Part shown: positions 31,198 to 60,169 of the stretch, piece after piece | How the letters are laid out: the number at the start of each line of letters is the position of its first letter | Position numbering within the stretch: position 1 is the stretch's first letter | NCBI GenBank assembly: GCA_033032175.1 | Contig: CM065309.1 | Location: 3,472,001-3,536,000 of the forward strand | Source of the DNA: Saturnia japonica | Lineage: Eukaryota; Arthropoda; Insecta; Lepidoptera; Saturniidae | Length of the DNA stretch: 64,000 nt | Direction: 5' to 3' | Program-made: the position numbers and the translations under genes | Notes under the pieces: model-generated | Seen by the model: only the letters and a program-made list of their open reading frames with translations | What the model was told of the DNA's origin: nothing | Databases searched by the model: none

Positions 31198-31211
31198 GGT
31201 CGGAGGCAGTT

Positions 31212-31290
31212 GGGGCACTATGTCTGGAACCTCCTCGTGGTGTACCCCGGGCAACGGCGGCCGCTTCACGGCCGACGGCTAATACCAGAC
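31212..31290 (+). ncRNA. HDV-like ribozyme of element A'
   Basis: P1 GGGGCAC (31212-31218) with GTACCCC (one C-A mismatch); P2 GTCTGG with CCAGAC (31285-31290); P3 ACC/GGT with loop TCCTCGT; P4 CGGCCG/CGGCCG with loop CTTCA; J4/2 ACGGCTAATA with the candidate catalytic C. P2 and P4 differ from the other copies by compensating changes. Confidence 0.75.
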
Positions 31291-31398
31291 CGACGGCGTT
31301 CCTCCCCTGTACCCCTCTGCTCATCAGAGGAGACAGGGGATGGGGCAAGAGTGGACCTGCTTCGGCTCGTCCACTACGGACGGACTCGTCGTTGACGG

Positions 31399-31940
31399 CG
31401 GAGGAGGAAGAAAACCTCCTTAAAAAATTGAGAGGATACAACCTCTTTAAAAAATCGCTGACGGCGGTGGAGTAAACCACCTTAAAAAACCTTGGACGGA
31501 CTGTGGTGGAGTAAACCACCCTTTAAAAAATCACGGACGGACGGTGGAAGACAACCACCTTAAAAAATTACTGGACGGAGGTGAAGAAAACCACCAGTAT
31601 AAAAAATCAAGGACGGACAGTGGAAGGAAACCACTTAAAAAAATAACCGGACGGTTGAGGATGAGCACCTCGTTAAAAAATCAAAGACGGACTTGACAAG
31701 GACGGACGGGAGCTTAATGACGGCAGAGGAGGAAACCTCTATAAGAAACCAACGACGGACTGGTGGGGGAGGGGGTGCGTTCATTCGCCTCCTTCTCCTG
31801 CCGTTACAGGACGGCAGAGGAGAAAACCTCGGTAAAAAATCATGGCCGGGCTAGCGGAGTGGGGGTGCGTTCATTCGCCCCTTACCCCCGCCATATGCCA
31901 AACATTATGGCAGAGACAGAGGAGAAAACCTCTATAAAAA
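31399..31940 (+). repeat. array of 11 short hairpins with A-tracts
   Basis: Unit: (GG)ACGG, 4-5-nt stem, purine-rich 6-8-nt loop, complementary stem, then about TTAAAAAATC. Stems in order: GGAGG/CCTCC 31403, AGAGG/CCTCT 31431, GGTGG/CCACC 31466, 31505 and 31543, GGTG/CACC 31580, AGTGG/CCACT 31619, GAGG/CCTC 31657, AGAGG/CCTCT 31725, GAGG/CCTC 31817, AGAGG/CCTCT 31918. Both sides of the stem change together. A single unit also occurs in element H at 48755-48780. Confidence 0.75.
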
Positions 31941-32329
31941 ACCCAACAACGGGTGGGTGGGGGACAGGTGGTGGTTCATCCGCCTCCTTCTCCTGCCAGG
32001 CCGAACCAAGGGGAGATGGGTCGGGGGGCCTGTCTTCCCATTGCACTGGTTTGGCGGACGGGGAGACAGTTCGTCACCGGTTTGTCTCCGTCAGCGGGCG
32101 GCCCTTCCGGGCCTTGCCGCCGGGGCGGCGCGGCTGAATGCCAGCGCAGTGCCCGCGTCGCCCCAGCATGGCGGCGGACGGTGCACCGTGGAGTTTTTTA
32201 GTGAGTAGGAGTCTCACATAACCACTCGTTCCCCCGGGCGAGTGTGTACCCATGACGGGTTTTCCACTCCACGTTAACAAAAAAAAAAAAAAAAAAGGTC
32301 GGAGGCAGTTGGTACGACTCGTTAATGTA

Positions 32330-34325
32330 ATGGATCGACGCCGTACCGACTGCCTTCAGGCGAATTTGAACCACTCCGCCACTGCACAAGATTTATTTGT
32401 GCAGTCAGTGGCGGAGTGGAACATCAATATTGCGGTGGCTGCGGAGCCGTACTCTGTCCCCGCCCAACCTTACTGGGCGGGTGACCTTGACGGCTCCGTA
32501 GCTATCTACTGCACGGGGTCCCCCCTCTCCTTCAAGGAGAGGGGATCCGGGTTCGTGGCGGCCGCCTGGGGAGGGTATGGGGTAGTGGGTGTTTACTTCT
32601 CCCCAAACCGGCCCCTGAGGGAGTTCGAGTCGTTTCTCGACTCCCTGGGGCCGGTGGTTAGGCGGCTGTCGCCACTCCCCATCGTCCTGCTTGGCGACCT
32701 TAACGCCAAGTCGAGGGCATGGGGAGGGGTGGCCACGGACCCAAGAGGGGAAGTGGTGGAGGAGTGGGCAGTCCAGGCTGGGCTGTCCCTCCTCAACCAA
32801 GGGGCGGTGCACACGTGCGTGCGACAGAACGGAGGGTCCGTGGTGGACGTCTCCTTCGCCACGCCGTCTGTCGCACGCCGTGTGCAGGATTGGAGAGTGC
32901 TGGAGGAGGTGGAGACCCTGTCAGACCACCGGTATATCCGGTTTGGGGTCTCCACCTCCTCAGAGGTGCCGGCGCGCCGGGCTCCGGGGGGGGCTAACTT
33001 CCCCCGATGGGTGGTGAGCCGCCTCAATCGGCAGCTTGCTGAAGAGGCGGCCATCGTCCAGAGCTGGCGCGCGCCGGCTCCTAGTGAGGAAGATATCGAC
33101 GCGATCGCGGGCCGTTTCCGTAAGGCCCTTACGGGCCGGGTGTTAGGTGTGGCGCTGAACCACATGGGGGTAGAGCTTCGGGAGCTGTTCAACCGATGTT
33201 TGTCGGTTGGACGGTTCCCGAAGCTCTTGAAGATGGGGTGACTCTGCCTTCTGGGGAAGGAGGGTTGCCCCCCGGACTGCCCGTCCTCGTACCGGCCCCT
33301 GGTGCTGCTGGACGACACGGGGAAGATGCTGGAGCGTATTCTGGCATCTCGTGTCGTCCAGCACATGGCGGAAGTTGGGCCGGTACTTTCGGACCGGCAG
33401 TTTGGTTTCCGGAGGGGGCGTTCAACGCTGGACGCCCTCTCCACCCTGAAGGAGTGGTCCACGGAGGCGACCGAGTGGGGAGGTAGGTTGTTGGCGGTAT
33501 CGATCAACATTCACGTGTTGTGCTACGCGGATGACACACTAGTCGTAGCCCAGGGGGGGGGGGTCTTTTGAAGAGGTGGCGCGCCTGGCCTCATAGGGAG
33601 TAGCCCTCGTGGTCGGGCGCATAAAGGCGTTGGGCCTCAGGGTGGCAGCTGAAAAGACCGAGGCCCTAATTTTTCATGGGCCTCGATGTGGGCCGCCTCC
33701 TGGGGCCCACATATATGTGGAGGGCGTTAGGGTCCGGGTTGGGGCCCAGATGAAATATCTGGGCCTCATCCTGGACGGACGTTGGCGGTTCGAGTCCCAC
33801 TTTAAGGGACTCGAACCGCGGATAGTGGGAGCGGCGGCGGCTCTCGGCCGGCTTCTTCCGAAACCGGGGGGGCCGGGCGCGAGCTGTCGCCGCTTATTTG
33901 CCGGAGTAGTGAGGAGCATGGCCGTCTACGGGGCACCGATCTGGTCGGATGCCCTTAGCGCCACGAACAGACGCGTGTTGCGTGCTACGCAGCGTGTCGT
34001 GGCGCTGAGGGTCATCCGCGGGTACCGGTCGGTGTCCGCGGGGGCGGCCATGGTTCTTGCCGGCTCCCCGCCGTGGGAGCTGGAGGCGGAGGTGCTCGCC
34101 GCCGTGTATGAATTCACGGCGGCGAGGAGAGAGTTAAGGGAGCCTCCGGCTCCCACGGAGGCGGACAGGGTCCGGCGTGAGGCCCGAGAGATTGTTATTG
34201 GAAAGTGGGAGGAGGACCTGGCGGACGCGCGCTATGGACGGTATACCATAGACGCCGTCCGCCCGGTCCTCCGGGAGTGGTGCGCCAGGGAGCGGGGCTC
34301 CCTGACGTTTAGACTTGTGCAGGTG
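32330..34325 (+). pseudogene. ORF2 (endonuclease-RT) of element A
   Basis: ATG at 32330 begins MDRRRTDCLQANLNHSATAQ. The endonuclease domain carries VVAAEPYSVP-like, LLGDLNAKSRAWGG and LSDHRYIRF motifs of APE-type R1-clade enzymes. The linker is deleted at about 33125. A CGA to TGA change stops the frame at 33239-33241. RT block 0-2 follows (SSYRPLVLLDD, RQFGFRRGRSTLDAL). About 78 codons, including the motif A Asp and PQGS, are deleted at 33510, then LCYADDTLVV. A G-run slip (33551-33560) shifts the frame. The thumb and tail region runs to 34325. Confidence 0.8.
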
Positions 34326-35880
34326 CTGCAGGATATCTGGCAACCTCAAGGGTACTTGTATCAAAACTCTAAAGGAGGCTGCTAGGACCCTACATGAGGT
34401 CACAGCCACGGCGCTAACTCGCACGGTTGAGGAAGAAACACTCATCCTCCGTCGCGAGGTATGAAAGCTCCGCGAAGAGACAACTGAGTTAAGGGTGGAA
34501 CTCGCCACTCTCCGTGGCCAGGTGAAGACTGTTCCACCAGTGCCAGTGTCGCAGGCACAGCCAGAGGGCTCTCACCGAGAGCCGGAATTCCTTCCGCAAA
34601 TTTTGCTAGAGGCAATGACGGTCCGAATGGACGACATGGAGCGTGCTCTCCGGTTGTCTTTCGGGGAAATGATAATGGATCGACTGGATGACCGTCTTCC
34701 CCCTGCAGGGGTAGTTCGTCCGCCCTTGGCTGCGGATAGAAGGACGGAGGAAACTGGACCTATAGGAGGCCCAAAGAAGACTTCCAGGGCCAAGAAGAAG
34801 CCGGCTGAAAATAAGCCCACGACAGCACCTCGTGCTGCTACTATAGCGGCAACACAACCACAGGAGTCTGTCCCTGGCATGGTCTGCGAATTGATACCTG
34901 ACCCGACTCCGGCTACGGCTCCAGATATTGAAGCGACTTGGACGAAAGTGATCCGTCGCAGGAAAAGGAAGAAAAAGAAGGTGGCGGTGGCGGCGGCTGC
35001 GAAAGTTGCTCCCTCCCGCCCGACGATGAATAAGGTGAAGCTCCTCCCGAGTCCACGCTCGGCTGCAGTGGTTTTTACGCTCCAGCCTGAGGCTTTGGCT
35101 CGGGGAGTGAGCTACAAGGACGCCCTCCTTAGAGCGAGGTCAGCCGTCAGCCTGACGGCTCTAGGAATTGAAGACTTCCTGTTTCGAGAGACCAAAACGG
35201 GATCTAGAATTATAGAAATTCCTGAAAGCCAAGGGGCGAAGCAAGCCGACAAACTGGCACAGAGTTTCCAGTCAGCGTTAGCGGACGTTGCCTTAATTGA
35301 TAGGCCCGTTAAGAGAGTAAATGTTCGCATCGTTGGCCTGGATGACTCTGTATCCAGGGAGGAGGTAGTCGCAGCTACAGCGGCTATAGGGGGATGCGAG
35401 TCGACCCTCATAAGGGCAGGCGAAATTCGCCGAAATAATAATTGCGGTATGGGTGCAATTCATTTGGCTGTACCAGTTGATGCAGCCAGAACCTTGGTTG
35501 AGGCTGGACTCCTCCTTGTCGGTTGGAGTGTGGTCCGAGTCCACCTTCTGGAACCTAGGCCCTTGCGCTGTTTTAAGTGCATGGGTTTGGGTCACACTCG
35601 GCTGCTGTGCCCGTCAACAACCGACAGGGGGCTCCAAGCTTTAGATGTGGGCAGCTAGGACACAAGGCGCTGGAGTGCGGAGCTGAAAAGCTTCGCTGCG
35701 CCTTGTGTGCTGATGCTGGAACGCCAGCTGGTCATTTTATGGGGGGCGTCAGTTGCAGACCGTCAACCAAGGCAAAAAGAGGGGCAGCACCAGCACCTAC
35801 ATCGTTTTCCGTAGGTGCTTAGCGTAGACGATGGGCAGTAGGTGGGGGTGTTTAACCGCCTTTTTCCTCTGCCCTTGCTG
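34326..35880 (+). mobile_element. element B: ORF1-only unit, both ends lost
   Basis: Joined to element A at 34326 and to element C at 35880. It contains ORF1 from SGNLKG to its end and then the start of the common 3' UTR (GCGTAGACGATGGGCAGTAGG at 35823) with no ORF2 in between, so it belongs to the gag-only group. Confidence 0.75.
34331..35822 (+). pseudogene. ORF1 of element B
   Basis: SGNLKGTCIKTLKEAARTLH at the start; TGA at 34465 replaces an Arg codon of the RRETRKLREE coiled-coil block. The core 34495-35640 contains RSAAVVFTLQPEALARG, RPVKRVNVRIVGLDDSV, and the first knuckle CFKCMGLGHTRLLC. A 1-nt slip near 35628 puts the second and third knuckles (FRCGQLGHKALEC, CALCADAGTPAGHFMGG) in another frame, ending 35820-35822. 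Confidence 0.75.
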
Positions 35881-35924
35881 GACGGCTTCTTCGGTCGCTT
35901 CTTGGCCGACGGCTAATACCTGAC
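35881..35924 (+). ncRNA. 3' half of an HDV-like ribozyme (element C)
   Basis: P4 CGGTC/GGCCG (35891-35907), J4/2 ACGGCTAATA and the P2 strand CCTGAC remain. P1, P3 and the 5' P2 strand are absent, so it cannot self-cleave. Confidence 0.6.
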
Positions 35925-36039
35925 AGGGGGGGCCTCGTTTATCGACTCTCTGCTCCTCAGAGCTGACGAAGGTCATGGCTTGTTGGCGGGCTCGGCGTGC
36001 ACTCACACTGTTGTCGGGCGGACAGGTTGGACACGTTGG

Positions 36040-36416
36040 TACGGCACACGGCATGGGTACGGAGGCGGCACAGCACCCTAACCTTCCGGCTGACGCAGGT
36101 GCTCTCGGGACACGGATGTTTCGGGAGTTACCTGTGTCGCATAGGCCGAGAGCCAACAACTGGGTGCCATCATTGTGGCTACGCGGTCGATAACGCGCAG
36201 CACACACTGGCCGCCTGTCCTGCATGGGACTCGTTACGCCGCGACCTTATCGCGGCTATAGGGCCCGATCTCTCACTCCCGACCGTCGTTTCATCCATGG
36301 TCGAGGGTGAGAGCAGGTGGAACTCCGTCGCCTCATTCTGCGAGGACGTCATGCTCGCAAAGGAGGCGGCGGAGAGGGAGAGGGAGCAGACGTTAGAGTT
36401 CCCCTCCCGCGGTTGA
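36040..36416 (+). pseudogene. C-terminus of ORF2 (zinc finger) of element C
   Basis: Reads LTFRLTQVLSGHGCFGSYLC and then the CX2C...HX4C finger CHHCGYAVDNAQHTLAAC, ending at TGA 36414-36416. This C-terminal finger is characteristic of R1-clade ORF2. The same region in element M is CHECGAAEDTAQHTLSEC. Confidence 0.75.
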
Positions 36417-36808
36417 CGAACCCGGCGGCGCAGGGTCAGGAATGACCTCCTGCCGCCGTAAAAACGGCCTGCGGGTGTCGGACGCGGGCACGTCCTTCGC
36501 CCTTGCAGCTAATGCACAGGCCCGAGGCGTGGCGCATCAGTGTTCGATGCGCCTCTCGTAGGTTCGTCGGAGGGTGTCACACACCTCGACCCCTCAGACC
36601 GCTGAAGGTGGCCCCTTATGAGGGGCCTACACCCGTCGGGCGAGTAGAAGTAATGCGCAAGCTGTCCCTACTCCCCGGCCAAATGGGTGAAGGAGGAAAA
36701 CCGTGGGGTTTTAGTCAGTAAGAGTCTGACATACCCCTCTCGAGCTGCCCGGCTCGGGAGGCGGATCCATGTAAGATTTCCCCAGGTAAAAAAAAAAAAA
36801 AAAAAAAA

Positions 36809-36822: not shown

Positions 36823-36899
36823 GGGGTGCGATGTCAGGAACCTCCCCGTGGTGCACCCCGGGCAACTTCGACCATTCTGGTCGGCGGCTGATACCTGAC
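36823..36899 (+). ncRNA. HDV-like ribozyme of element D
   Basis: P1 GGGGTGC (36823-36829)/GCACCCC (36853-36859); P2 GTCAGG (36833-36838)/CCTGAC (36894-36899); P3 ACC/GGT with loop TCCCCGT; P4 CGACCA/TGGTCG with loop TTC; J4/2 GGCTGAT with candidate catalytic C at 36888. P1 begins on the first base after the telomeric GGTT. Confidence 0.85.
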
Positions 36900-37114
36900 G
36901 CGCTCCTCCTGGTATCCCTCTGCTTATCAGAGGGGACTATGGAGAGGCGCCGGCTGGAGGGCCGTAAAAGCTCCTGGGTGTGGTATGTGCGCGGCGCACC
37001 CAGTACCGGGCTGGGGCCGATGAGGGCTCAGTCTGAGCCCCAAGGGCCCAGTTCCGGACAGCGGCTGGCGGGATTGGTTGTTTTCATACCGATCGGCAAA
37101 ATTTAAGATTAAAC

Positions 37115-37191
37115 TACCCCAGGAGGGTACCCGAAAGGGAGAATCCCTCCCCGAGCCTAGCTCGGGCTACCCCGCGTCTTCTGGGGGGGGC
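37115..37191 (+). ncRNA. leader module copy a (element D)
   Basis: GGAGGG/CCCTCC outer stem enclosing CCC-GAAA-GGG; then CCGAGC-CTA-GCTCGG; then CCCC...GGGG. Confidence 0.7.
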
Positions 37192-37199
37192 AAAATTTT

Positions 37200-38593
37200 G
37201 CAAGATTCGAGAAAACACACGACGACACTGGCTAGTAAACTGACGACTGATACCACTAAAACGACGACCTTGGCTAAGGAAAAACGGTTAATTGATGGAC
37301 CCGTTGTGGTCCTGGAGCGGGATCAGTCGCGGCGCGAGACGCGTAAGCTTCGTGAAGAGGCGGCCGAGATGAGAGTGGAACTTGCGACTCTGTGTGGCCA
37401 GATAAAGACTGCGCCAGTGCAGGTGGTGCCTGAAGTTCCTCACCGGGAGCAGGAAATCGTTCCCCAGGCGTTGCTGGATGCGATGGTGGTCCGCACGGAC
37501 AACATGGAACATTCCCTGCGGGTGTCTCTAGGTGAGATGATTACCGCCCGCTTAGATGATCGTCTTCCCCCTGAAAAGGGTGGTTCGTCCATCCTTGGTC
37601 ATGGATAGGAGGCTGGAAAAATCTGGGCCTGTAGGGGGGCCAAAGACTAAGCCCGCTGGTGCCAAGAAAAAGCCGGCTAAGCCCGAGCCTGCACCTTGTG
37701 TTGCGACCTCAGCGGCAGCGCCATCCCAGGAGTCGGTCCCTGGAGTGGTCTTGGATACGATTCCAACCACGGCGCAAAATGCCGAAACGACGTGGACCGA
37801 AGTATCCCGTCGCAAAAAGAAAAGGAAGAAGAAGAAGAAGGCGGTACCGTCTGCGAAGGCAGCTTCCACTCCTCAGAAGGGTGCACCTCGGAAGTCCAAG
37901 GTGAAGCTCCCCCCGAGCCCGCGTGCGGCTGCAGTAGTCATGACACTGCAGCCCCTGGCAGTGGCTCGGGGGATTAGCTACAAAACGGCCCTTCTGAGGG
38001 CTAGAGAGGCTGTCAATCTGACGTCGAAGGGAATTGATCAGCTCTTGTTCCGTCAGACTAAAACGGGAGCAAGAATCTTTGAAATTCCTGGCTCCCAAGG
38101 CCCGGAGCAAGCCGACAAACTGGCGCAGAGTCTCCAAGCGGCGTTGGCGGACGTTACCTTGATCAACCGGCCTGTCAAGAGGATTAGCGTCCGCATCGTC
38201 GGCTTGGATGACTCTGTGACCAGAGATGAGGTTGTTGCCGCCACGGCGTTAAAGGGCGGATGCCAGCCAGCCCATATAAGAGCTGGCGAAATTCGCAATT
38301 TTAGAGGAGGCCTGGGTGCGATACATTTGTCTGTGCCTGTAGCCGCGGCTAAGACCCTGGTGGAGGCTGGGCGCCTCCTTGTTGGTTGGAGCGCGGCCTG
38401 GTTTCATGTGCTTGAATACAAGCCAATGAGCTGTTTCAAGTGCATGGGTCTGGGCCACACTCGGCCCTTATGCCCGTCAGCAGTTGACAGGAGAGTGCTC
38501 TGCTTCCGCTGTGGTCGGCCTGGTCACAGGGCACGAGGCGCAGTGCCCGCGTCGCCCCAGTATGGCGGCGGATGGTACACCGTGGAGTTTTAG
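37200..38593 (+). pseudogene. ORF1 of element D, internally deleted
   Basis: After the leader, frame 37078-37608 gives the coiled coil and the SLRVSLGEMITARLDDRLPP block. A slip near 37575 moves to the frame ending 38593. Core domain RAAAVVMTLQPLAVARG, RPVKRISVRIVGLDDSV, knuckle CFKCMGLGHTRPLC, then CFRCGRPGH runs into 3' UTR sequence. Confidence 0.75.
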
Positions 38594-38684
38594 TGAGTAG
38601 GAGTCTCACATAACCACTCGTCCCCCCGGGCGGGTGTGTACCCATGATGGGTTTCTCCACGTTAAAAAAAAAAAAAAAAAAAAA

Positions 38685-38693: not shown

Positions 38694-38758
38694 CAGAAAC
38701 CTCCTCGTGGTGCACCCCGGGCAACGTCGACCAGTCTGGTCGGCGGCTGATACCTGAC
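38694..38758 (+). ncRNA. HDV-like ribozyme lacking P1 5' strand (element E)
   Basis: P3, P4 (CGACCA/TGGTCG) and the 3' P1 and P2 strands are present, but the GGGGTGC strand is missing, so P1 cannot form. Confidence 0.7.
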
Positions 38759-39020
38759 ACACTCCTCCCGGTATCCCTCTGGTTATCAGAGGGGACTGTG
38801 GAGGGGTATTGGCTGGAGGGCCATTAAAAGCTCTTGGGTGTGGCATGTGCGCGGCGCACCCAGTACCGGGCTGGGACCGATGAGGGCTCAATTTGAGCCC
38901 CAAGGGCCCAGTTCCGGACAGCGGCTGGCGGGATCGGTAGATTTTATACCGGTCCCGGCAGGCGTACCGCAAACTGGAGGAGGAGAAAAGGAAATGGAGG
39001 CAAAATTTAAAAAAGCAATA

Positions 39021-39096
39021 GCCCAGGAGGGTACCCGTAAGGGAGAATCCCTCCCCGAGCATGGCTCGGGCTGCCCCTCGTCTTCTGGGGGGGGGC
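39021..39096 (+). ncRNA. leader module copy b (element E)
   Basis: Inner hairpin CCC-GTAA-GGG (a GNRA loop), CCGAGC-ATG-GCTCGG, GCCCC/GGGGC. Not in the main ORF1 frame. Confidence 0.7.
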
Positions 39097-39132
39097 AAAA
39101 TTTTGCTCAATACGAACAAAACAACAACGACT

Positions 39133-41104
39133 ATGGCAAGCTCAAGGACGACTGACAATTCAAAAGCAACGACCTTGGCATTATCGAAACGGACATCTGA
39201 TAGACCCTCTGTGGTCATCGAGAGAGATCTGGCGCTTGATGAATTCGCAGTCAGACACTGGACTGATAGTTCAAGTTAGGAAGGTGCAGAGGCTACTGAT
39301 AGCAGAAAGAGGGGACACGTGGGCGATGGAGATGAGGTAGGCGTGACCGAGTCCCCGCCCAGCAAGATTACCACGGCGCGCAGGGGCAAATCCTGCGACC
39401 CTGGCAATACGGCCGGATCTAGGCGTACGATAGTGAGTGAGGTAGGCGTGTCCGCTGTACCCACGACACTATCATCCAGCGCTACTACACTGGAGGCTCC
39501 AGAAATTGAAGAGGAGTTAGCCCTTGAGACTCTTGACCCGGAGCGGTTAAGGACTCTGGCGAACAAAAAAGTGGCGTGCATTTATGAGGTGTGCAAGAAA
39601 TCGGGCAACCTCAAGGGAACCTCTATAAAGGAGCTGAAGGGAGCAGCAAGTGTACTGCAAGAAGTGGTGGCAACAGCGCTCACCAGAACTGTGGCTGAGG
39701 AGACGCTGTTACTCCGTCGAGAAACCAGAAAACTCCGCGAAGAGGTAACGGAGCTGAAGGCGGAGCTCGCTGCCCTCCGTAAGCGTCCAGAGAATCCACC
39801 TCTGACAACGGCACCACGGGCTCAGACGGAGCCCCTTTGCAGGGAGCAAGAGATCCTGCCGCAGGTGCTTCTGGACGCGGTGGCGGACCATGTGGCAAAC
39901 TTGGGGCAGTCTCTCCGGATGTCTCTGGGTGAGATGATATCTGCCCGCCTGGAGGCCCAGGAGGACCGTTTGCTTCCGGCCAAGGTGGTCCGTCCTCGGC
40001 TAGCCGCAGACAGGAGGAATGAGTCCTCTATATCAGTTACAGTGCCCAAGCTGAAAACCGCTGGGTCCAAGTCAAAGCCAGCTGGGCCTGTACACGATCC
40101 CCTTGCTGGGGTTGTGGAGAAGACACAGACTTCCAGGGAGCCTGTTAATATCCTGGAAACAGACTGGCCAGAACTTTCGAACCCGACGGCTCCAAATGCG
40201 ACGTGGACTACGGTGTCACGTCGCAAAAGAAAGAAAAAGAAGGCACCGACTGAAGTTGTGGCGACGGCTCCTCTGAAGGATGCGCCTGGGCGGAAGAGCA
40301 AGTCAAAACTCCCCTCACCCCCACGCTCGGCTGCAGTGCTCATAACACTGCAGCCTGAGGCAGTTGCTCAGGGTGTGAGCTATAGTGCGGCCCTTCTGAA
40401 GGCAAGGATGTCGGCGGATCTGCCTAGATTGGGTATTGAGGACCTATCGATCCGCATGACAGCTACGGGAGCTAGGGTCATCGAGATTCCTGGCCCCCAA
40501 GGCCAGGAGCAGGCCGACAGGCTGGCGCAGTGCCTCCAGTCGGCATTAGTTGGAGTCGCCACCATAGGTAGGCCGGTAAAGCGGGTGAACGTCCGCATCG
40601 TCGGTTTGGACGATTCCGTGACGCAGGAGGAGGTGGTCGCAGCTGTCGCGTCCAAGGGTAAGTGCGACTCAGCTCTAATTAAGGTTGGATCTATACGCAG
40701 CATGGGTAGGAGTTTGGGCAGGGTTCATATGTCCCTCCCTGTTACGGCGGCAAAGTTATTGGTGGAGGGGGGACGTCTCCTTGTGGGATGGAGTGCGGCC
40801 CGAGTCCATCTCTTGGAGCAAAAGCCTCTGAGGTGCTTCAGGTGTTTGGGCTTGGGTCATACGCGGCCAACTTGCCCGTCGTCGGTCGATAGGGGGGGCT
40901 GTGCTTCCGATGTGGGAAACCAGGCCATAAGGCCTTGGAATGTGAGGCGGTGACGCTGCACTGTGGATACTGCGCTGATGCTGGACAGCCAGCAGGACAT
41001 TATATGGGGGGCGCTGGCTGCCGGCCGCCTCCCGTTAAAGGGACGATACCTGTTGCGCCAATACCAGCGACAAGTCCATCACCGGACATATGCGTAGACG
41101 ATGG
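39133..41104 (+). pseudogene. ORF1 of element E
   Basis: Likely start ATG 39133 (MASSRTTDNSKATTLALSKR). TAG at 39277-39279 interrupts SSS-EEGAE, which is open in the sister copy J. From 39319 the frame is open for 544 codons: SGNLKGTSIKELKGAASVLQ, coiled coil LLLRRETRKLREEVTELKAE, basic stretch RRKRKKKK, core RSAAVLITLQPEAVAQG and RPVKRVNVRIVGLDDSV, first knuckle CFRCLGLGHTRPTC. A G-run slip at about 40895 moves the second and third knuckles (CFRCGKPGHKALEC, CADAGQPAGHYMGG) to another frame, ending near 41104. Confidence 0.8.
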
Positions 41105-41445
41105 GTAGTAGGATGAGGCGCTTCCACGCCTCTCCTCTGCTCTAGCTGGACCAAGGGGAGACGGGTCGGGGGGCTCGTCTTCCCATTGCACTGGTTCAGC
41201 CGTCTGGGAGACAGTTGGGGTTGTACCAGACTGTCTCTCTTTAGCGCCGGGGCCCGACTGGGGCTGGCCGCCGGGGCGTCGCGGCTGATTGCAACCGCAG
41301 TGCCCACGCGTCCCACTATGGCGGCCGATGGTACACCGTGGAGTTTTAGTGAGTAGGAGTCTCACATAACCACTCGTCCCCCCGGGCGCGTGTGTACACA
41401 TGACGGGTTTCTCCACGTACAAAAAAAAAAAAAAAAAAAAAAAAA

Positions 41446-41454
41446 GGTTAGGTT
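41446..41454 (+). repeat. telomeric tract GGTTAGGTT between E and F
   Basis: Nine telomeric bases following a 25-A tail. Confidence 0.9.
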
Positions 41455-41456
41455 AT

Positions 41457-43166
41457 GGGGGGGGGGGCCGATCCCGTGACAAGGGTTCGACTCGTGCAAC
41501 GAAAGCTGGAAAGGCCGGTGGGTCACATGACTGTGCTATTGCCACACCGATCAAGGATGAGCCGTCGGAAAGCGCCGATGTAGGAGTGCTCGAAGGAATT
41601 GAGTTGCTCGACCCTGATAGTCTGAGGGCTCTTGCGACGGAGAATGTTGATGAGATCCTTGAGGTTGCCAAAAGATTTGGCAACCTCAAGGGTACCTACA
41701 TCAAATCGCTCAAAGAAGCAGCATGGACTCTGCGAGAAGTAACGGCCACCGCTCTTACGCGCACGGTGACTTCAGAGAATCTTCTCCTGCGCCGTGAGAC
41801 GGGGAGGCTGCGTCGTGAAGTCGAGGAGCTGAGGGCGGAACTTGCGTCGTTACGTGTTCGGGTGGAGTGTCCACCTCCGTCACCGTCACCATTGCCACAG
41901 GTGTTACCTCAGGCTTCACCGCAGGTGGATCTGGAGTTGTACAGCGAAGTGACAGATATCTTGCCAAAGACACTGCTCAAGGTGCTAGATGGATACATGG
42001 ACAGGATGGAGAGATCTCTCCGGCTGTCGTTAGGGGAGATGATATCCGCACGTCTGGACGATCGTCTTCCACCCTCCGAAGTGGTCCGCCCGCCCTTAGG
42101 TGCGGACAGAGGGTTGGCTCCTGGTCCTTCTGGATCTCAGCCTGTAGGACGAAAGGCCGCGAGGTCCAAAGCTGCAAAGCCTAAGGCTTCGATGCCCATC
42201 CCTGATGTGACGACGACAGTCCATCCACAGGAGGCCGTGCCTGCTGCTCCTGCCCAAGATCAGGCTGGAGCTGGATCGGGATGGACGACCGTAGCCAAGC
42301 GACGGAAAAAGAAGGAAAAGGCCTCATCGAATCTGAAGGCTACTGCGGGGGTGATTTCCACTCATAAGGGAATGCCTGGGCCCAAGCCCAAGCCTAAGCT
42401 TCCTTCGGCACCGCGCTCGGCTGCAGTGCTCCTTGCACTGCGGCCTGAGGCTGTGGCGGAGGGGCTATCGTATAGTGAGGCTTTACTTAGAGCACGGGAC
42501 CGTCTCCCTTTGTCTGACCTGGGGATCGATAAAATATCTATTCGGTGTACTGCCTCGGGCAGCCGTATTATTGAGATACCGGGTGCCCGGGGAGTAGAGC
42601 AGGCGGATCAATTAGCCCTAAAGCTAAGTGAGATTATGGCAGATGTAGCCACAGTGGCGAGGCCCATTAAAAGAGCAGACATCCGAATCATTGGATTGGA
42701 GGATTCCGTCTCGGCGCATGAAGTCGTAGCGGCAGCGGCGGCTAAAGGCGGTTGCGAGCCAAACCTTATTAGGGCTGGTGAGATACGTCCCTACGGGAGA
42801 GGCAATGGCGCAATTCACTTGTCACTCCCAGTCGCCGCTGCCAGGACATTGGTGCAGTTAGGTCGTCTCCTTGTTGGCTGGAGTATGGCACGCGTCCGTC
42901 TCCTGCAAGGGGGGCCTTTGAGATGTTTCAGGTGTCTGGACGTGGGCCATACCCGGCCCACATGCCCTTCGGCAGTTGATAGAGGAGGCCTTTGCTTCCG
43001 TTGTGGACAGCCTGGCCACAAGGCGCAAGAGTGCACAGCTGCAAAGCTGCACTGTGCCCTGTGTGCCGACGCCGGAAGGCAGGCGAAACATTTCATGGGA
43101 GGGGCGAAATGTAGGCCACCCGTCCAAAAGACGGGGAGAGCGCCTGCAGCGCCAAGACCCCCTTAG
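41457..43166 (+). CDS. ORF1 (gag-like) of element F, best preserved of the gag-only group
   Basis: Open without interruption for about 570 codons; its true start is lost to truncation, and the frame also reads back through the preceding poly(A) as lysines, which is an artefact. Domains: acidic ADVGVLEGIELLDPDSLRAL, GNLKGTYIKSLKEAAWTLRE, coiled coil (RRETGRLRREVEELRAELAS), SLRLSLGEMISARLDDRLPP, basic linker, core RSAAVLLALRPEAVAEG ... RPIKRADIRIIGLEDSV, three knuckles CFRCLDVGHTRPTC, CFRCGQPGHKAQEC, CALCADAGRQAKHFMGGAKC. It ends at TAG 43164-43166, 10 nt before the 3' UTR. Expected role: RNA binding and telomere targeting of element RNPs. Confidence 0.8.
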   Translation, partial: GGGGRSRDKGSTRATKAGKAGGSHDCAIATPIKDEPSESADVGVLEGIELLDPDSLRALATENVDEILEVAKRFGNLKGTYIKSLKEAAWTLREVTATALTRTVTSENLLLRRETGRLRREVEELRAELASLRVRVECPPPSPSPLPQVLPQASPQVDLELYSEVTDILPKTLLKVLDGYMDRMERSLRLSLGEMISARLDDRLPPSEVVRPPLGADRGLAPGPSGSQPVGRKAARSKAAKPKASMPIPDVTTTVHPQEAVPAAPAQDQAGAGSGWTTVAKRRKKKEKASSNLKATAGVISTHKGMPGPKPKPKLPSAPRSAAVLLALRPEAVAEGLSYSEALLRARDRLPLSDLGIDKISIRCTASGSRIIEIPGARGVEQADQLALKLSEIMADVATVARPIKRADIRIIGLEDSVSAHEVVAAAAAKGGCEPNLIRAGEIRPYGRGNGAIHLSLPVAAARTLVQLGRLLVGWSMARVRLLQGGPLRCFRCLDVGHTRPTCPSAVDRGGLCFRCGQPGHKAQECTAAKLHCALCADAGRQAKHFMGGAKCRPPVQKTGRAPAAPRPP

Positions 43167-43173
43167 GGGTTGA

Positions 43174-43501
43174 GCGTAGACGATGGGCAGTAGGTGGGGG
43201 TATTTAACCGCCTCTTTCCTCTGTCCTTGCTGGACCAGGGGAGACGGGTCGGGGGGCCCGTCTTCCCATTGCACTGGCTCAGCCGTCTGGGAGACAGTTG
43301 GGGTTGTACCAGACTGTCTCTCTTTAGCGCCGGGGCCCGACTGGGGCCGGCCGCCGGGGCGTTGCGGCAGATTGCAACCGCAGTGCCCGCGCGCCCCACT
43401 ATGGCGGCCGATGGTACACCGTGGAGTTTTAGTGAGTAGGAGTCTCACATAACCACTCGTCCCCCCGGGCGGGTGTGTACACATGACGGGTTTCTCCACG
43501 T
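43174..43501 (+). promoter_or_regulatory. common 3' UTR of the array elements (reference copy in F)
   Basis: About 330 nt shared by A' (31960-32278), E (41095-41420), F, K (55756-56083), L (57633-57962), N (62501-62827) and, in part, D (38540-38663), M (59870-60080) and B (35823-35880). Near the end is GTGAG-loop-CTCAC followed by ACTCG/CGAGT and ACCC/GGGT hairpins, then poly(A). Element C carries the equivalent with GTCAG/CTGAC. This is the expected recognition region for the RT (inference from non-LTR elements generally). Confidence 0.7.
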
Positions 43502-43525
43502 AAAAAAAAAAAAAAAAAAAAAAAA

Positions 43526-43534: not shown

Positions 43535-43610
43535 GGGGTGCGTGTCAGGAACCTCCTCGTGGTGCACCCCGGGCAACGTCGACCAGTCTGGTCGGCGGCT
43601 GATACCTGAC
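43535..43610 (+). ncRNA. HDV-like ribozyme of element G
   Basis: P1 GGGGTGC (43535-43541)/GCACCCC (43564-43570), P2 GTCAGG (43544-43549)/CCTGAC (43605-43610), P3 ACC/GGT with loop TCCTCGT, P4 CGACCA/TGGTCG, J4/2 GGCTGAT. Preceded by ATGGG after the telomeric GGTT. Confidence 0.85.
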
Positions 43611-43843
43611 AAACTCCTCCCGGTATCCCTCTGATTATCAGAGGGGACTGTGGAGGGGTATTGGCTGGAGGGCCATTAAAAGCTCCTGGGTGTGGCATGT
43701 GCGCGGCGCACCCAGTACCGGGCTGGGGCCGATGAGGGCTCAATTTGAGGCCCAAGGGCCCAGTTCCAGACAGCGGCTGGCGGGATCGGTTGCTTTTATA
43801 CCGGTCCCGGCAGGCGTACCGCAAACTGACGATAATAGTATTG

Positions 43844-46564
43844 ATGATGGATTCCGCAAGATTAAAAAGTAAACTACCCCAGGAGGGTACCCTAACGGGA
43901 GAATCCCTCTCCGAGCACGTCTCGGGCTGCCCCACGTTTTCTGGAGGGGGCAAAGCTTTGCGAAATTCACACACAACGACAACTTTGGCGAGTACAAGGA
44001 CTCTTGATGGAAACGATTTGGATGTCGAACTGATGGATAAACCGACGACTATGGCACGAAAATGGACTACTGATCGATCGTTTAACATGGATAGTGCAAA
44101 ATTACAATTTGAACTACCCCAGGAGGGTACCTTAACCGGAGAATCCCTCCCCGGGCTTGTCCCGGGCTGCCCCACGTTCTCTGGGGGGGGCAAAATTTTG
44201 CATGAGTTAGATTTAAACACGATGACTTTGGCGCGAAAATGGGTATCCGATGAAGAAAACATGATGGACAGTGCAACAGTAAATAGTAAACTACCCCAGG
44301 AGGGTACCAGCACTACTCGTGCTGGAGAATCCCTCTCCGGGCTTGGCCCGGGCTGCCCCGCGTTTTCTGGGGGGGGCGAATTGTTGCGAGACTCAACTAC
44401 TCCGACGACTTTGGCTTGCTCAAGGACTTCTGTTGCTTCACCAATTGTTGTACTGGAAAGGCTGCCGGCTCTTGAAAGAATGGCGTCTGTTGAATGTCTC
44501 TCAGACAGTAGTAACTGCAGTGCGGACACCTTTGAGACCATTGAATCCATTGAGGGGAGTGAGTCTCCTTGCTTAAGTAAGTTTTTCCGTAAGCGGAAAG
44601 GGAAAAACTTGGATGAAGGTTCTGCCCCAGAGGCGGGTTCTGACGTTGAGCCGGATAATGTCACGAAGGATGCTCGTATAACTCCCGCGAAGAAAGGCAG
44701 GGGTCGCCCTCCGACCACAGGTAAATATGTGGGTCAGTATGTGGCACAAAAGGAATTAATCCGCCTTGAGCAGGAAGAGCTCCGTCTCCGTGCGGAGCAA
44801 GAGGTGGCAGACCTGGATGAGGAAGCCAGGCAACTCCGAGTTGCCACTAGGGCGCACGGTACAAATCAGCCGGAGGCTGCTCTTGACCTGAACGAATTGG
44901 CTAAAAAGAGCGTAGAGGTGGTTCTAAAAGTAGCCAAGAGATCCGGCAATCTGAAGGGGACTTTTCAAAAAGCCTTAAACCATGCTGCGGACTCTTTAAA
45001 AGAGATCTTGGAAGTGCTCCAATGCCGGACCACAAATAGTGAAACGGCTCGCTTAAAAGCGGACAATGACCGCCTAAAGGAGGACTTACTTCGTCAACAG
45101 ACGGAGATGGCGGAGCTTCGAAAGGAGCTAGCTGATATGAGAGTGCAAATAAGCCAGCTGCACCCTCAAGCACAGGCGTCACAGCCCATTACGGTGCCCG
45201 GGCAGCAGATTGTGCCACCTCGCAAGAAGGCGGCGAGGGAAGAATTTCCTCCCCTGCCGCAGCCGCGCGAGTCGAGGATTCAGATGGAGCCGCCTCAAGT
45301 AGTCTCTGCTGAAAGATTCGAGCAGGCGATGCTCCGAATGGAAAATATAATGTTCGCTCGGCTAGAGGCTATGGAGAACAGGCTCCCGCCGGAGGAGCGG
45401 ATGCGACCTCCATTGGCCGCAGATCGTAGGAATGCTAATGCAAAAGCAGTAATCGTACCTGAAGAACGGTCCTCCAAACTTCCAATTCCTCCGTTGTCAG
45501 CCGTCAAAAATGTAAAAAGAGGAACCAAGGAGAAGGCTAACAATGCTACGGCAATTCCAGCTGTGTTAGCTCCTTCCACAAATAGGGAGCAGCCGGTAGT
45601 GCCTAAACCCGTAGAAGGGGAATGGGTGCTAGTTGGTAAGAACGGTCGCCCTAAAAAGCCAGCTAACTCGAAGAAGTCAACTCCTAAGAAGGAGAAGGGC
45701 CGTAAACTCCGAGCACCAAGAACAACTGCGGTGTCAGTTACTCTGCAGCCGGAGGCGGAGAAGAAGGGTTTTTCCTACTTGCAGGTGCTCCAAGGAATAA
45801 AAACCAACGTCAGGCTGGCTGACCGGGGTATTGAAGGGATCCGTTGGAGGAGAGCAGCGAACGGTGGTTACCTTGTCCAGATACCTGGTGCCGCCAGTGG
45901 AGATAAAGCAGATGCCCTGGCAGCCAGATTTAAAGAGGTGCTTCCAGCAGAGGGCATTAAAATATCCAGGCCCATGAGGTGCGCAGACATTCGTATCTCG
46001 GGCCTAGACGAATCCGTCACAGCAGATGAAGTTATCGCTGCTGTGGCCGAGACTGGCGGATGTCCCCGGGAGCAGGTGAAAACGAATGGAGTACGTCCAG
46101 GGCTAAGGGGGCTCTGTACGGCTGTAGTTTCTTGTCCTGTGGCGGCAGCGAAAAAAGTCACGGACGGCCGACGACTTCTGATTGGGTGGGTGTCGGCACA
46201 AATTAAGCTCTTGGAGCCTCGGTCTCGAAAATGCTTTAGATGCTTACAAGCCGGACATCTGGGCAATAAATGCACCTGCCAGGTTGACTGTAGTCAGCTA
46301 TGCTTCCGGTGCAGTCAACCGGGGCATAAAGCCGTTGAGTGCAGTGCGGAGCCACACTGTGCGGTTTGCGCAGCTTCAGGCAGACCTGCTGCCCATCGAG
46401 TGGGTAGCAGGGATTGTGATAAGCCTGCGCCCTCAACCAAAAACGGGGCGAAGAAGAATAGGGGCAGGAGCAGGGGTAAGAACCCCGCCCAGCCCTCGAC
46501 GTCATCGGTAGTCACTGAGACGCCGGCGACTTCCCATGAAGGCGAAATGGAGTGTCATCAATAA
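43844..46564 (+). CDS. ORF1 (gag-like) of element G, intact
   Basis: 906 codons from ATG 43844 (a second ATG at 43847) to TAA 46562-46564. Order: three translated leader repeats, Ser/Asp-rich stretch, AT-hook-like KKGRGRPPTTG (44691-44723), helical charged segment (RLEQEELRLRAEQEVADLDE), SGNLKGTFQKALNHAADSLK, coiled coil, core domain TTAVSVTLQPEAEKKG ... RPMRCADIRISGLDESVTAD, three knuckles CFRCLQAGHLGNKC, CFRCSQPGHKAVEC, CAVCAASGRPAAHRVG. ORF2 ATG follows 2 nt after the stop, suggesting coupled or reinitiated translation. It is longer than the gag-only ORF1. Confidence 0.85.
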   Translation: MMDSARLKSKLPQEGTLTGESLSEHVSGCPTFSGGGKALRNSHTTTTLASTRTLDGNDLDVELMDKPTTMARKWTTDRSFNMDSAKLQFELPQEGTLTGESLPGLVPGCPTFSGGGKILHELDLNTMTLARKWVSDEENMMDSATVNSKLPQEGTSTTRAGESLSGLGPGCPAFSGGGELLRDSTTPTTLACSRTSVASPIVVLERLPALERMASVECLSDSSNCSADTFETIESIEGSESPCLSKFFRKRKGKNLDEGSAPEAGSDVEPDNVTKDARITPAKKGRGRPPTTGKYVGQYVAQKELIRLEQEELRLRAEQEVADLDEEARQLRVATRAHGTNQPEAALDLNELAKKSVEVVLKVAKRSGNLKGTFQKALNHAADSLKEILEVLQCRTTNSETARLKADNDRLKEDLLRQQTEMAELRKELADMRVQISQLHPQAQASQPITVPGQQIVPPRKKAAREEFPPLPQPRESRIQMEPPQVVSAERFEQAMLRMENIMFARLEAMENRLPPEERMRPPLAADRRNANAKAVIVPEERSSKLPIPPLSAVKNVKRGTKEKANNATAIPAVLAPSTNREQPVVPKPVEGEWVLVGKNGRPKKPANSKKSTPKKEKGRKLRAPRTTAVSVTLQPEAEKKGFSYLQVLQGIKTNVRLADRGIEGIRWRRAANGGYLVQIPGAASGDKADALAARFKEVLPAEGIKISRPMRCADIRISGLDESVTADEVIAAVAETGGCPREQVKTNGVRPGLRGLCTAVVSCPVAAAKKVTDGRRLLIGWVSAQIKLLEPRSRKCFRCLQAGHLGNKCTCQVDCSQLCFRCSQPGHKAVECSAEPHCAVCAASGRPAAHRVGSRDCDKPAPSTKNGAKKNRGRSRGKNPAQPSTSSVVTETPATSHEGEMECHQ
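43875..44377 (+). ncRNA. three leader modules c, d, e in tandem (element G)
   Basis: Copies at 43875-43951, 44115-44191 and 44291-44377, each inside ORF1 in the same frame (LPQEGT...GESL...GCP.FSGGG). Inner hairpins CCC-TAAC-GGG, CC-TTAACC-GG and CCAGCAC-TACTC-GTGCTGG; middle hairpins CCGAG/CTCGG, CCGGG/CCCGG and CCGGGC/GCCCGG. The stem changes are compensating. Confidence 0.75.
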
Positions 46565-46566
46565 CA

Positions 46567-48494
46567 ATGGCACTCAATTTCTTACAAGGTAATCTCAACC
46601 ACTGTGCCAGAGCTCAAGACCTCTTGTTCCAGAGCATGGCGCAGTGGTTGATCCACATCGCCGTGATGGCCGAGCCGTACTATGTTCCACCCGCAGATAA
46701 CTGGGTGGGTGATTTGGACGGTTCGGTGGCCTTAGTGTCCCAGGCCGCTGCTGGTGCCCCTCCTTTCTCCAACATCTCGAGGGGTCGGGGGTACGTAGCA
46801 GCACATCTCGGTGACATGGTCGTAGTAGGGGTGTATATGCCTCCAAGTAGAAGTCTCGCTGACTTTGAGGGATTCCTCGGGGAGATGCAAATCGTTGTTG
46901 GTCGTATCCATCCTCACCCCGTCCTGGTCCTCGGGGACTTCAACGCTAAATCTACAGCTTGGGGTTCCCCGTCAACGGACGCTAGGGGTGAGGCTCTGGA
47001 GGAGTGGGCTATATTAATGGGCCTACTTGTCATCAATCGGGGGTCCGTTAACACGTGCGTGCGACAGCAGGGCGGTTCTATAGTGGATATTACGTTTGCA
47101 AGCCCTGCTTTAGCACGCCGAGTTCGGGGCTGGACAGTCCTTGAGGGAGTGGAGACGTTGTCAGACCACCGATATATACGGTTCGACATCTCCACCCAGG
47201 CCTTGGATGTACCGGCCCGTAGGACCTCCGTAGAGGACGGTCCGCGTTGGGCATTGAAGCGCCTAGATCGTGAGGTACTTCTGGAAGCTGCCGTCATGCA
47301 GGCCTGGGTTTCCGGTGAACCGCCCGACAGGCTTGCTGATGTTAACGAAGAGACGGAGTCACTGCGCGCGGATATGACGCGTGTCTGCGATGCGGCAATG
47401 CCCCGAATAAAGGGGCCGATGCCCGCCAGGCGTCAAGTGTACTGGTGGACCGCCGAAATCGCGCAATTGCGTGCCGCGTGTGTAACGGTTCGGCGCCAGT
47501 ACACCAGAGAGCGGCGCAGGCGGGGTCGCACGCAGGACGCGTCCGCCAGAGAGGTAGAACTCTACGAAGGGTACAGAGCGGCCAAGTTGGCGCTCAAAAA
47601 GACCATTGAGCGGGCGAAAGCTTTGGCCAGGGAGGAGCAGCTGGAGACGCTCAACCGGAATCCATGGGGGCGCCCGTACCGAATGGTACGTGGCAAATTA
47701 CGCCAATGGGCTCCCCCGATAACAAAGAGTCTCCAGCCAGAGCTCCTCCAAGATGTAGTGGCCGCTTTGTTTCCTACGGGGGCAGAGCATACACCTCCCA
47801 CGATGGCTCCGTTCGCAGCCATGCCCAACGCGGAGGGCGACGACGATGCACCCGAGGTGACCCGGGAAGAGCTGAGGGCGGCGGTGAAACGCATGCAAGC
47901 AAAAAACACCGCCCCAGGACCCGACGGCATACCTGGTCGTGCATGGGTCCTGGCTCTAGAAGCCCTCGAGCCCCGACTTTTGGGGATCTTCACAGCGTGT
48001 CTTCAGCAGGGCCGGTTTCCGCGTGTATGGAAAACCGGCAAACTAGTCCTGCTGAAGAAAGAGGGGCGCCCTGCGGACTCTCCGTCCGCATACCGGCCCA
48101 TAGTGTTGTTGGACGATGTGGCAAAGCTCTGCGAGCGAATAATCGCAGTCCGCCTCGTCCGACACTTAACAACGATAGGGCCGGATCTGGCGGATAACCA
48201 GTTTGGTTTCCGCCAGGGGCGCTCCACGATTGACGACATAATGCGTGTGAAGATCCAGGCGTAGGAAGCAATTGCTCGGGGCGAGGTGGTTCTGGCGGTG
48301 TCTCTTGACATCGCCAACGCTTTTAACACCTTGCCCTGGGCTACAATTAGAGAGGCACTCCGGTTTCATGGAGTGCCGTCCTACCTCCGCCGCATAGTCG
48401 GGGCGTACCTCAGTGAGAGGTACGTGACCTTCCCGGGTCAGCGAGGGATGAGTCGGCGAGATGTCGTATCCGGTGTTCCCCAGGGGTCAGTGTG
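46567..48494 (+). pseudogene. ORF2 (endonuclease-RT) of element G, truncated
   Basis: Starts MALNFLQGNLNHCARAQDLL. APE-type endonuclease motifs: MAEPYYVPP, VLGDFNAKSTAWGSPSTDAR, NTCVRQQGGSIVDITF and LSDHRYIRF. The linker WGRPYRMVRGKL and RT blocks AKNTAPGPDGIPGR, SAYRPIVLLDDVAKL and NQFGFRQGRSTIDDI follow. One in-frame TAG (48262-48264) interrupts the frame, which continues LAVSLDIANAFN (motif A Asp) to VSGVPQGSV, where element H sequence begins. The YADD motif and C-terminal finger are missing. Confidence 0.85.
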
Positions 48495-48496
48495 AG

Positions 48497-48547
48497 GTGC
48501 ATCCCGGGCAACGGCGGCCGCTTCACGGCCGACGGCTAATACCTGAC
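48497..48547 (+). ncRNA. 3' half of an HDV-like ribozyme (element H)
   Basis: From GGTGCATCCCGGGCAAC: P1 3' strand, P4 CGGCCG-CTTCA-CGGCCG, J4/2 ACGGCTAATA and CCTGAC. Same P4 subtype as A'. The 5' P1 and P2 strands are gone. Confidence 0.65.
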
Positions 48548-55750: not shown

Positions 55751-56079
55751 GGGATGCGTAGACGTTGGGCAGTAGGTGGGGGTGCTTAACCGCCTCTTTC
55801 CTCTGCCCTTGTGGACCAAGGGGAGACGGGTCGGGGGGCCCGTCTTCCCATTGCACTGTTCAGCCGTCTGGGGACAGTTGGGGTTGTACCAGACTGTCTC
55901 TCTTTAGCGCCGAGGCCCACTGGGGCCGGCCGCCGGGGCGACGTGGCAGATTGCAACCGCATTGCCCGCGGCGTCCCACTATGGCGGCGATGGTACACCG
56001 TGGAGTTTTAGTGAGTAGGAGTCTCACATAACCACTCGTCCCCCCGGGCGAGTGTGTACCCATGACGGGTTTCTCCACG

Positions 56080-56112
<33 letters not shown>
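54946..56112 (+). mobile_element. element K: 3' part of a gag-only unit
   Basis: ORF1 from the linker before the core domain to its end, the common 3' UTR (from GCGTAGACGTTGGGCAG at 55756) and poly(A) 56084-56112. Multiple single-base losses relative to siblings. Confidence 0.8.
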
Positions 56113-57958: not shown

Positions 57959-57989
<31 letters not shown>

Positions 57990-60088: not shown

Positions 60089-60165
60089 GGGGTGCGATGT
60101 CAGAAACCTCCTCGTGGTGCACCCCGGGCAACGTCGACCACTTTGGTCGGCGGCTAATATCTGAC
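60089..60165 (+). ncRNA. HDV-like ribozyme of element N
   Basis: P1 GGGGTGC (60089-60095)/GCACCCC (60119-60125); P2 GTCAGA (60099-60104)/TCTGAC (60160-60165), a compensating variant of GTCAGG/CCTGAC; P3 ACC/GGT; P4 CGACCA/TGGTCG; J4/2 GGCTAAT. P1 begins right after the telomeric GGTT. Confidence 0.85.
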
Positions 60166-60169
60166 GCGC

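Follow-up and report, generated by a model that had tools for sequence, protein, structure and literature searches.

The 64-kb window analyzed here (64,000 nucleotides of Saturnia japonica, contig CM065309.1, positions 3,472,001 to 3,536,000 of the forward strand) contained a head-to-tail array of long interspersed nuclear element (LINE) copies of the R1 clade. We concluded, with a probability of about 75%, that the array contains a nonautonomous, gag-only lineage of a telomere-repeat-specific, SART-like LINE, the units of which carry open reading frame 1 (ORF1), encoding Gag, and lack ORF2. The lineage was best filed as SART rather than TRAS on the basis of the insertion site, not of a reverse transcriptase (RT) tree. 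The analysis covered this single window. The array began at about 29.7 kb and continued to the right edge of the window, and every copy found was on the + strand, as are the array features given below unless noted otherwise. Poly(A) and short GGTTAGG spacers lay between several of the elements, and the sense of the spacers suggests that the chromosome end is to the right of the array.

As an earlier note on this DNA had claimed, six copies (B, E, F, K, L, and N) passed from ORF1 into the same 3' untranslated region (UTR) start with no ORF2. The junction motif GCGTAGACGNTGGG had six exact occurrences (35822, 41092, 43174, 55756, 57632, and 62500; 43174 to 43187 in element F), one between the ORF1 tail and the 3' UTR of each of the six copies, and no further sites were found when two mismatches were allowed. 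A chance origin was rejected, as six occurrences were reached by 0 of 100 shuffles. Homology to ORF2 between the ORF1 tail and the 3' UTR was found in none of the six. Sequence after ORF1 was visible in eight members of the group (A, B, C, E, F, K, L, and N); ORF2 was missing in seven, and six of those seven had the single common junction. Element C had lost ORF2 by a different, larger deletion.

The junction was located at the site of the ORF2 end, as previously proposed. Specifically, the pol-bearing element M aligned to the gag-only 3' UTR from position 59827, which is about 15 codons upstream of its ORF2 stop, and the same R-rich tail ended 30 of the 32 ORF2 relatives printed (P0009 to P0040; P0037 extended past the tail and P0040 departed from it). 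Because of this homology start and the shared ORF2 tail, the gag-only unit looked like ORF1 plus the last ~15 ORF2 codons and the 3' UTR, as would result from an internal deletion in a SART-like LINE of the R1 clade. The earlier statement that the sequences around the junction had diverged between copies was borne out directly upstream, where copies differed mostly by 30 to 67% (30-nt windows), but not from about 55 nt downstream, where they differed by 3 to 5%.

The region from 38694 to 43525 had been described as one feature; it was actually two elements, E and F. Element E (38694 to 41445) was a nearly full-length gag-only copy that was missing the first ~12 nt of its 5' end. It contained a 5' UTR, ORF1 from an ATG at 39133, a 3' UTR (41092 to 41420), and a poly(A) tail followed by GGTTAGG, and its ORF1 was interrupted by an in-frame stop codon (39277) and, near its end, by a frameshift in the second knuckle. 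Element F (41455 to 43525) began after 10 nt of telomere repeat past the poly(A) of E. It had been credited with a fully open ORF1 with three zinc knuckles. The frame was open over the remainder of ORF1 to the stop at 43164 to 43166 and included three CCHC-type knuckles, but F was 5'-truncated, with the N-terminal part missing, and was not a complete ORF; its first own in-frame ATG was at 41997, and the sole earlier ATG (41400) was inside the 3' UTR of E.

The other gag-only copies were in various states. Element N (60089 to 62838) was complete from its ribozyme-like 5' end to the 3' UTR and was followed by TTAGG repeats, and its ORF1 was degenerate (15 non-triplet indels relative to F). Elements E and N each spanned ~2.75 kb from the 5' UTR to the end of the 3' UTR. 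Element K (54966 to 56112) was the 3' half of a gag-only copy, and element L (56125 to 57989) was 5'-truncated. Element B (34336 to 35886) contained part of ORF1 and the first ~65 nt of the 3' UTR. Of the six, E, F, K, L, and N extended to the 3' UTR end and telomere repeats, in line with the earlier claim for copies with this part visible, and B did not. Element C (36823 to 38684) had a ribozyme-like 5' end, ORF1, a deletion that extended into the 3' UTR (about 38533/38539), and an A21 tail. Element O (62859 to 64000) was a gag-type copy that ran off the window with its ORF2 status unseen; its ORF1 was open from an ATG at 63303 to the window end. Since O and E were 97.6% identical over 1137 columns and had different 5' ends, the E/O subfamily was copied recently. 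Fused to B was another deletion derivative (35884 to 36808), which consisted of a truncated 5' UTR, an ORF2 end (about 60% amino acid identity to M), a different 3' UTR, and A21, and which had a 3' hairpin with one paired G-C to C-G change relative to the gag-only hairpin.

To analyze selection on ORF1, codons were projected onto the frame of F, and stops and gapped codons were masked. The usable codons, out of 557, were 556 in F, 531 in E, 504 in N, 475 in L, 456 in both A and B, 377 in C, 255 in K, and 149 in O. The pairwise ratio of nonsynonymous to synonymous divergence (dN/dS) was 0.16 to 0.30, with a dS of 1.05 to 2.2, in 20 of the 21 pairs formed by B, C, E, F, K, L, and N; one pair was saturated. 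Element O, which was left out of the codon maximum likelihood set because it had few codons, yielded dN/dS values of 0.35 with F, 0.36 with E, 0.18 with L, and 0.23 with N and was saturated with B. Codon maximum likelihood analysis of the seven copies (547 sites, fixed topology) produced an omega (dN/dS) of 0.237 and a log-likelihood (lnL) of -9129.6, which was 312 lnL better than that of the neutral model (-9442.1). In a two-class model, omega was 0.26 on internal branches and 0.23 on terminal branches, and neutral internal branches were 13 lnL worse. Thus, the dN/dS check that the earlier note had suggested revealed purifying selection: ORF1 had diverged to near synonymous saturation yet was constrained, and neutrality was rejected. 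The result is evidence of selection on gag-only elements provided that the loss of ORF2 is older than these branches.

The 3' UTR was about 0.33 kb long (43174 to 43501 in F), was nearly invariant among copies from about 43229, and contained a short hairpin (GTGAG-N7-CTCAC) near its 3' end. Over its whole length, it differed by 4 to 11% among E, F, K, L, and N (10 pairs), whereas the C-terminal part of ORF1 differed by 28 to 41% among B, E, F, K, L, and N (15 pairs). Either the RNA 3' end has been conserved far more strictly than the protein, which would be expected if it has to be recognized by a foreign RT, or 3' ends have been exchanged. The hairpin had one double change among three distinct rows, a result matched by 153 of 500 shuffles, and as a conserved structure it was only suggestive.

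The tails of E, F, K, and L were A25, A24, A29, and A27 (then CAAAA), respectively, and N ended in AAAAAATAAAA. The next nucleotides were GGTTAG in E, K, L, and N and GGTTAT in F. All eight array 3' ends (36808, 38684, 41445, 43525, 56112, 57989, 62838, and, at an internal site in M, 60080) were abutted by (A)GGTTA. In the silkworm element SART1Bm, the TTAGG strand is described as the target, poly(A) is joined to AGG, and reverse transcription can start inside the 3' UTR (PMC7265360). The array 3' ends fit the poly(A)-AGG rule, and the end of M resembled internal initiation. Together with the differing 5' ends and the A-tails of individual copies, this SART-type target supports multiplication of the gag-only group by retrotransposition. 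The difference is that SART1Bm encodes both ORFs, whereas the gag-only units encode Gag alone, and ORF1 and ORF2 were carried here by elements A and H.

Element A (29680 to 34331) contained a 5'-truncated ORF1 that extended to 31213 and an ORF2 that started at an ATG at 32330, the two being split by an insert. Its ORF1 belonged to the gag-only group (41% amino acid identity to F; 38 to 60% by tblastn piece), and its ORF2 was ~92% identical to that of M at the DNA level over their overlap. The ORF2 was damaged, with parts missing relative to M and H (internal deletions) and a frame stop at 33239. Pfam endonuclease and RT domains were present in the pol-bearing relative, the APE endonuclease of which had TRAS1 (1wdu) as the best solved match, followed by R1Bm (2ei9), and is R1-clade as judged by these matches. 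Element M (58001 to 60080), a 5'-truncated copy with an RT, had a 3' UTR that broke off at an internal TTTTAG, directly followed by GGTTAGG. This 3' UTR was related to that of the gag-only units (19/47, 7/54, 31/66, and 7/83 differences from F in successive blocks), which points to M as a relative and not as a demonstrated helper. Element H (43535 to 48498) carried an ORF1 of another clade and an ORF2 truncated in the RT, and its 5' UTR was 88 to 90% like that of the gag-only copies. The start of the H ORF1 (43736 to 44430) contained a module (LPQEGT...GESL...GCP..FSGGG) in three diverged versions, and this module also occurred in the gag-only 5' UTRs and at the start of a Papilio machaon protein (P0132).

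The insert in A (31214 to 32296; 1.08 kb) was a UTR-only copy that consisted of the 5' UTR, 39/76-bp tandem repeats, the 3' UTR, and A18, and it had no ORF1 or ORF2 homology. It was flanked by a 16-bp target duplication, GGTCGGAGGCAGTTGG (31198 to 31213 and 32297 to 32312), and sat at the ORF1/ORF2 boundary of A, outside telomere repeats. Because this ORF-less copy had a target duplication, an RNA with only these ends must have been inserted by machinery from elsewhere. Trans-mobilization, which the earlier note had offered as an inference, gained support from this insert, from the relatedness of the gag-only 3' UTR to that of M, and from a published assay in which SART1Bm proteins mobilized a reporter RNA carrying the SART1Bm 3' UTR in trans, in a 3' UTR-dependent manner (PMC7265360). 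The gag-only units would have multiplied in the same way. Scans of viral contigs for relatives yielded 12 ORF1 stretches and 32 ORF2 stretches, none of which were confirmed, and no match to the 3' UTR pattern.

The 5' ends of these elements resembled hepatitis delta virus (HDV)-like ribozymes. The 5' end of N (60089 to 60166) matched RF02682 with 44.4 bits (gathering threshold, 44), and weaker matches, below the threshold, were located at 43535 to 43613 (H), 31212 to 31289 (UTR-only copy), and 36823 to 36900 (C). Matches to RF00094 were all below its threshold of 50 bits (N, 41.9; UTR-only copy, 34.8; H, 32.8; C, 31.8). In all four copies with an intact end, the match started at the element 5' end or no more than 2 bases from it. 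P1 to P4 were fully paired in N and H, whereas C had one mismatch and the UTR-only copy had three; P2 contained paired changes between copies. The matches thus spanned gag-only, pol-bearing, and UTR-only copies, and the common 5' end may be an active HDV-like ribozyme. The LINE ribozymes named in one report include those of R2, R4, Dong, baggins, L1/L1Tc, and RTE (PMC3774820). An HDV-like ribozyme in SART was not recognizable by title or abstract start among the papers listed, most subscription papers being outside reach.

In the mechanism that we propose, an internal deletion first brought the ORF1 end next to the final ~15 codons of ORF2 and the 3' UTR. The resulting RNA would keep the Gag ORF between a ribozyme-like 5' end and the 3' UTR. 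The ribozyme would free the RNA 5' end, and Gag would be translated and then coat the RNA. The ORF2 protein of a pol-bearing relative, probably of the A/M type, would recognize the common 3' UTR, nick the repeats between TT and AGG, and copy the RNA in trans. Gag may have been retained for preference for its own RNA or for delivery to telomeres.

Whether the common junction arose once was examined with ORF1 trees. The best full-length tree placed the gag-only copies in a monophyletic group that was sister to A plus P0002, and the C-terminal part alone did not settle the position of A. Two outside proteins, P0001 (645 amino acids; longest contig, 2129) and P0130 (270 amino acids; longest contig, 1116), ended in a similarly short tail and nested among the window copies, near F with the C-terminal part and near K with the full length. 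A tree separating the window gag-only copies from them was rejected (approximately unbiased test, p-AU of 0.0047 and 0.0045). Both are known as proteins with the ORF2 status unseen, and they could originate from this species or a different one. The idea of one ancestral deletion, put forward in the earlier note, was consistent with the monophyly in the best ORF1 tree, but two other observations weakened it. A position of A inside the gag-only group was not rejected on full-length ORF1 (p-AU of 0.17), and B differed from F by only 3 and from K by only 2 of the 41 nt after the junction while its ORF1 divergence was 39 to 41%, which hints at an exchange of 3' ends. Because the 3' UTR was nearly invariant beside diverged ORF1s, we consider one deletion favored and not proven.

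Such an exchange is central to a different explanation, in which several ORF1 lineages each dropped ORF2 by gaining the same young 3' end through template switching or recombination. The junction would then be the exchange point, and selection on Gag would have taken place in autonomous ancestors. The low 3' UTR divergence beside an ORF1 dS above 1, the sharp drop in divergence past the junction, the likeness of B to F and K there, and the 5' UTR held in common with H of the other ORF1 clade all fit this explanation. However, the best ORF1 and 3' UTR topologies for F, K, L, N, and E were only 0.07 lnL apart (compatible, with little signal), the ORF1 tails before the motif were similarly long and in part recognizably homologous, and the gag-only copies were monophyletic as described above. 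We regard an exchange as improbable. Repeated removal of ORF2 as an intron, followed by insertion of the spliced RNA, would account for one fixed junction over diverged ORF1s, and a pyrimidine-rich stretch did precede CAAAG at the ORF2 end of M. Nevertheless, inspection by eye, with no splice predictor, revealed no convincing splice pair at the ORF1 end of A and the ORF2 end of M, and the best trees placed every ORF2-bearing element outside the F/K/L/N/B/C cluster, although a grouping of A with B and C was not rejected (p-AU of 0.33 and 0.056). Splicing was rejected as very unlikely on this evidence.

The array also contained most copies in a broken state and several joints without telomere repeats, as would be expected of dead deletion copies multiplied only through DNA duplication. 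That explanation was rejected as slightly less likely still, given the differing 5' ends, the private A-tails, the short TTAGG spacers, and the omega of 0.24. An assembly collapse of ORF2, conceivable in a repetitive array, would require a collapse at the same base in six copies with 28 to 41% diverged ORF1s, and elements H, I, and J kept ORF2 parts within the same array; it was rejected as the least likely of the alternatives.

Several further findings weigh against a ribozyme-processed, trans-mobilized gag-only lineage. A complete, intact gag-only ORF1 was not seen within the window, and neither was an intact helper (A was interrupted and deleted and had a stop, and M was 5'-truncated). The UTR-only insert abutted AGGTCGG with no telomere repeat and shows trans movement, but not that of a gag-only copy. 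The RF02682 threshold was reached by N alone (H, 38.6; UTR-only copy, 33.2; C, 30.6; O, 24.8; E, 24.3), the weakest matches, O and E, being 5'-truncated. The 3' UTR had little covariation (9 of 96 pairs; term, -0.02).

The earlier comparison with Drosophila HeT-A was apt for the gag-only plan with an RT-bearing relative, but HeT-A proved to be an analogue only. HeT-A is described as a gag-only telomeric LINE in head-to-tail arrays, and the RT-bearing TAHRE has a similar Gag and conserved DNA regions (PMC5537684, PMC4700185). The array here has the same features. HeT-A (with TAHRE and TART) is found in fly telomeres without simple repeats, attaches to ends, and has an unusually long 3' UTR with a promoter, whereas the copies here lay between TTAGG spacers and had a 0.33-kb 3' UTR, a relative with an R1-clade endonuclease, and an HDV-like 5' end. 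Because the setting and the 3' UTR differ, the gag-only units work like HeT-A and are not members of HeT-A. They are probably a second, independent case of the HeT-A plan, in a TTAGG telomere.

Other partial elements were comparable in part. HAL1 (half-L1) of mammals is described as a nonautonomous LINE derivative with ORF1p only and several origins (PMC5753468). It is likewise an ORF1-only derivative, but of the L1 family. HAL1 is not known to be telomeric. MoTeR2 of the blast fungus is located in telomere repeats, lacks an RT, and has both ends in common with the RT-bearing MoTeR1 (PMC7367193). The MoTeR pair differs in being fungal, in its TTAGGG repeats, in an RT nearest to SLACS/CRE1, in an unrelated insert that replaces gag, and in having the 5' end toward the chromosome end. 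The R2 and R2/R1 short internally deleted elements (SIDEs) of Drosophila ribosomal DNA (rDNA) have a 5' HDV-like ribozyme and a 3' end and are reported to be moved by the R2/R1 machinery (PMC3414825). Their plan fits the UTR-only copy, which has both ends, no ORF, and a ribozyme match below gathering; the SIDEs have an rDNA target and no ORF, whereas the gag-only units retain a constrained ORF1. Gag-only or nonautonomous SART or TRAS elements were not recognizable by title or abstract start among the papers listed; most subscription papers were outside reach, and we make no claim of absence.

A 2017 review called the origin of HeT-A unclear (PMC5537684). With pol-bearing relatives and an ORF-less derivative in one array, and with a SART trans assay already published, the retention of Gag can be tested: is Gag kept for preference for its own RNA or for bringing RNA to telomeres? 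To our knowledge, why a telomeric element drops its RT yet keeps Gag is unsettled for HeT-A.

Pfam detected only the CCHC knuckles in Gag. An AlphaFold2 model based on 17 sequences (mean predicted local distance difference test score, 69.3; predicted template modeling [TM] score, 0.40) contained a long helical stretch, likely a coiled coil, two high-confidence alpha-beta domains, and the knuckle region. The best Foldseek matches were mostly proteins with two RNA recognition motifs (RRMs), with TM-scores by query of 0.10 to 0.17 (best 50 matches listed); the model and these matches suggest a domain reading, no more. A broader proposal, which we hold only tentatively and think rather unlikely, is that an ancient gag-only lineage, shared by at least two species, independently arrived at the HeT-A plan within TTAGG telomeres, with a ribozyme-processed RNA, a selected Gag, and a borrowed RT. 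The Gag of this lineage, predicted to have a coiled coil, two RRM-like domains, and three knuckles, would bring ribonucleoproteins to telomeres and help keep telomeres long where telomerase is weak.

To the left of the array was a glycogen-debranching-enzyme gene (domains in ORFs, 22.6 to 25.3 kb). The homologues with an organism name, among the matches listed in three protein searches (one being the best 120 of 845), were lepidopteran and came from Vanessa, Euphydryas, Brenthis, Danaus, Papilio, Bicyclus, and others. Within the array, joints without telomere repeats were located at about 34331/34336 (A and B), 35884 (B and the derivative fused to it), 48495 (H and I), 51490 (I and J), and 54924 to 54966 (J and K) and may reflect template jumping or recombination. 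Rfam matches to mir-3389, mir-9242, mir-96, mir-Ro6-3, anti-hemB, and snoTBR5 all scored under their gathering thresholds and were not counted as genes. The mir-3389 match (58592 to 58660, minus strand; 59.1 bits; gathering, 75) was antisense to the RT of M, and the mir-3389 family may be derived from such elements. Outside the array, another RT was present in two minus-strand copies (19339 to 20661 and 28609 to 29211; 93 to 95% identity over about 1 kb), and RT and RNase H domains of the long terminal repeat retrotransposon type (Pfam RVT_1, RT_RNaseH, and RT_RNaseH_2) were located at positions 1 to 1386 on the minus strand.

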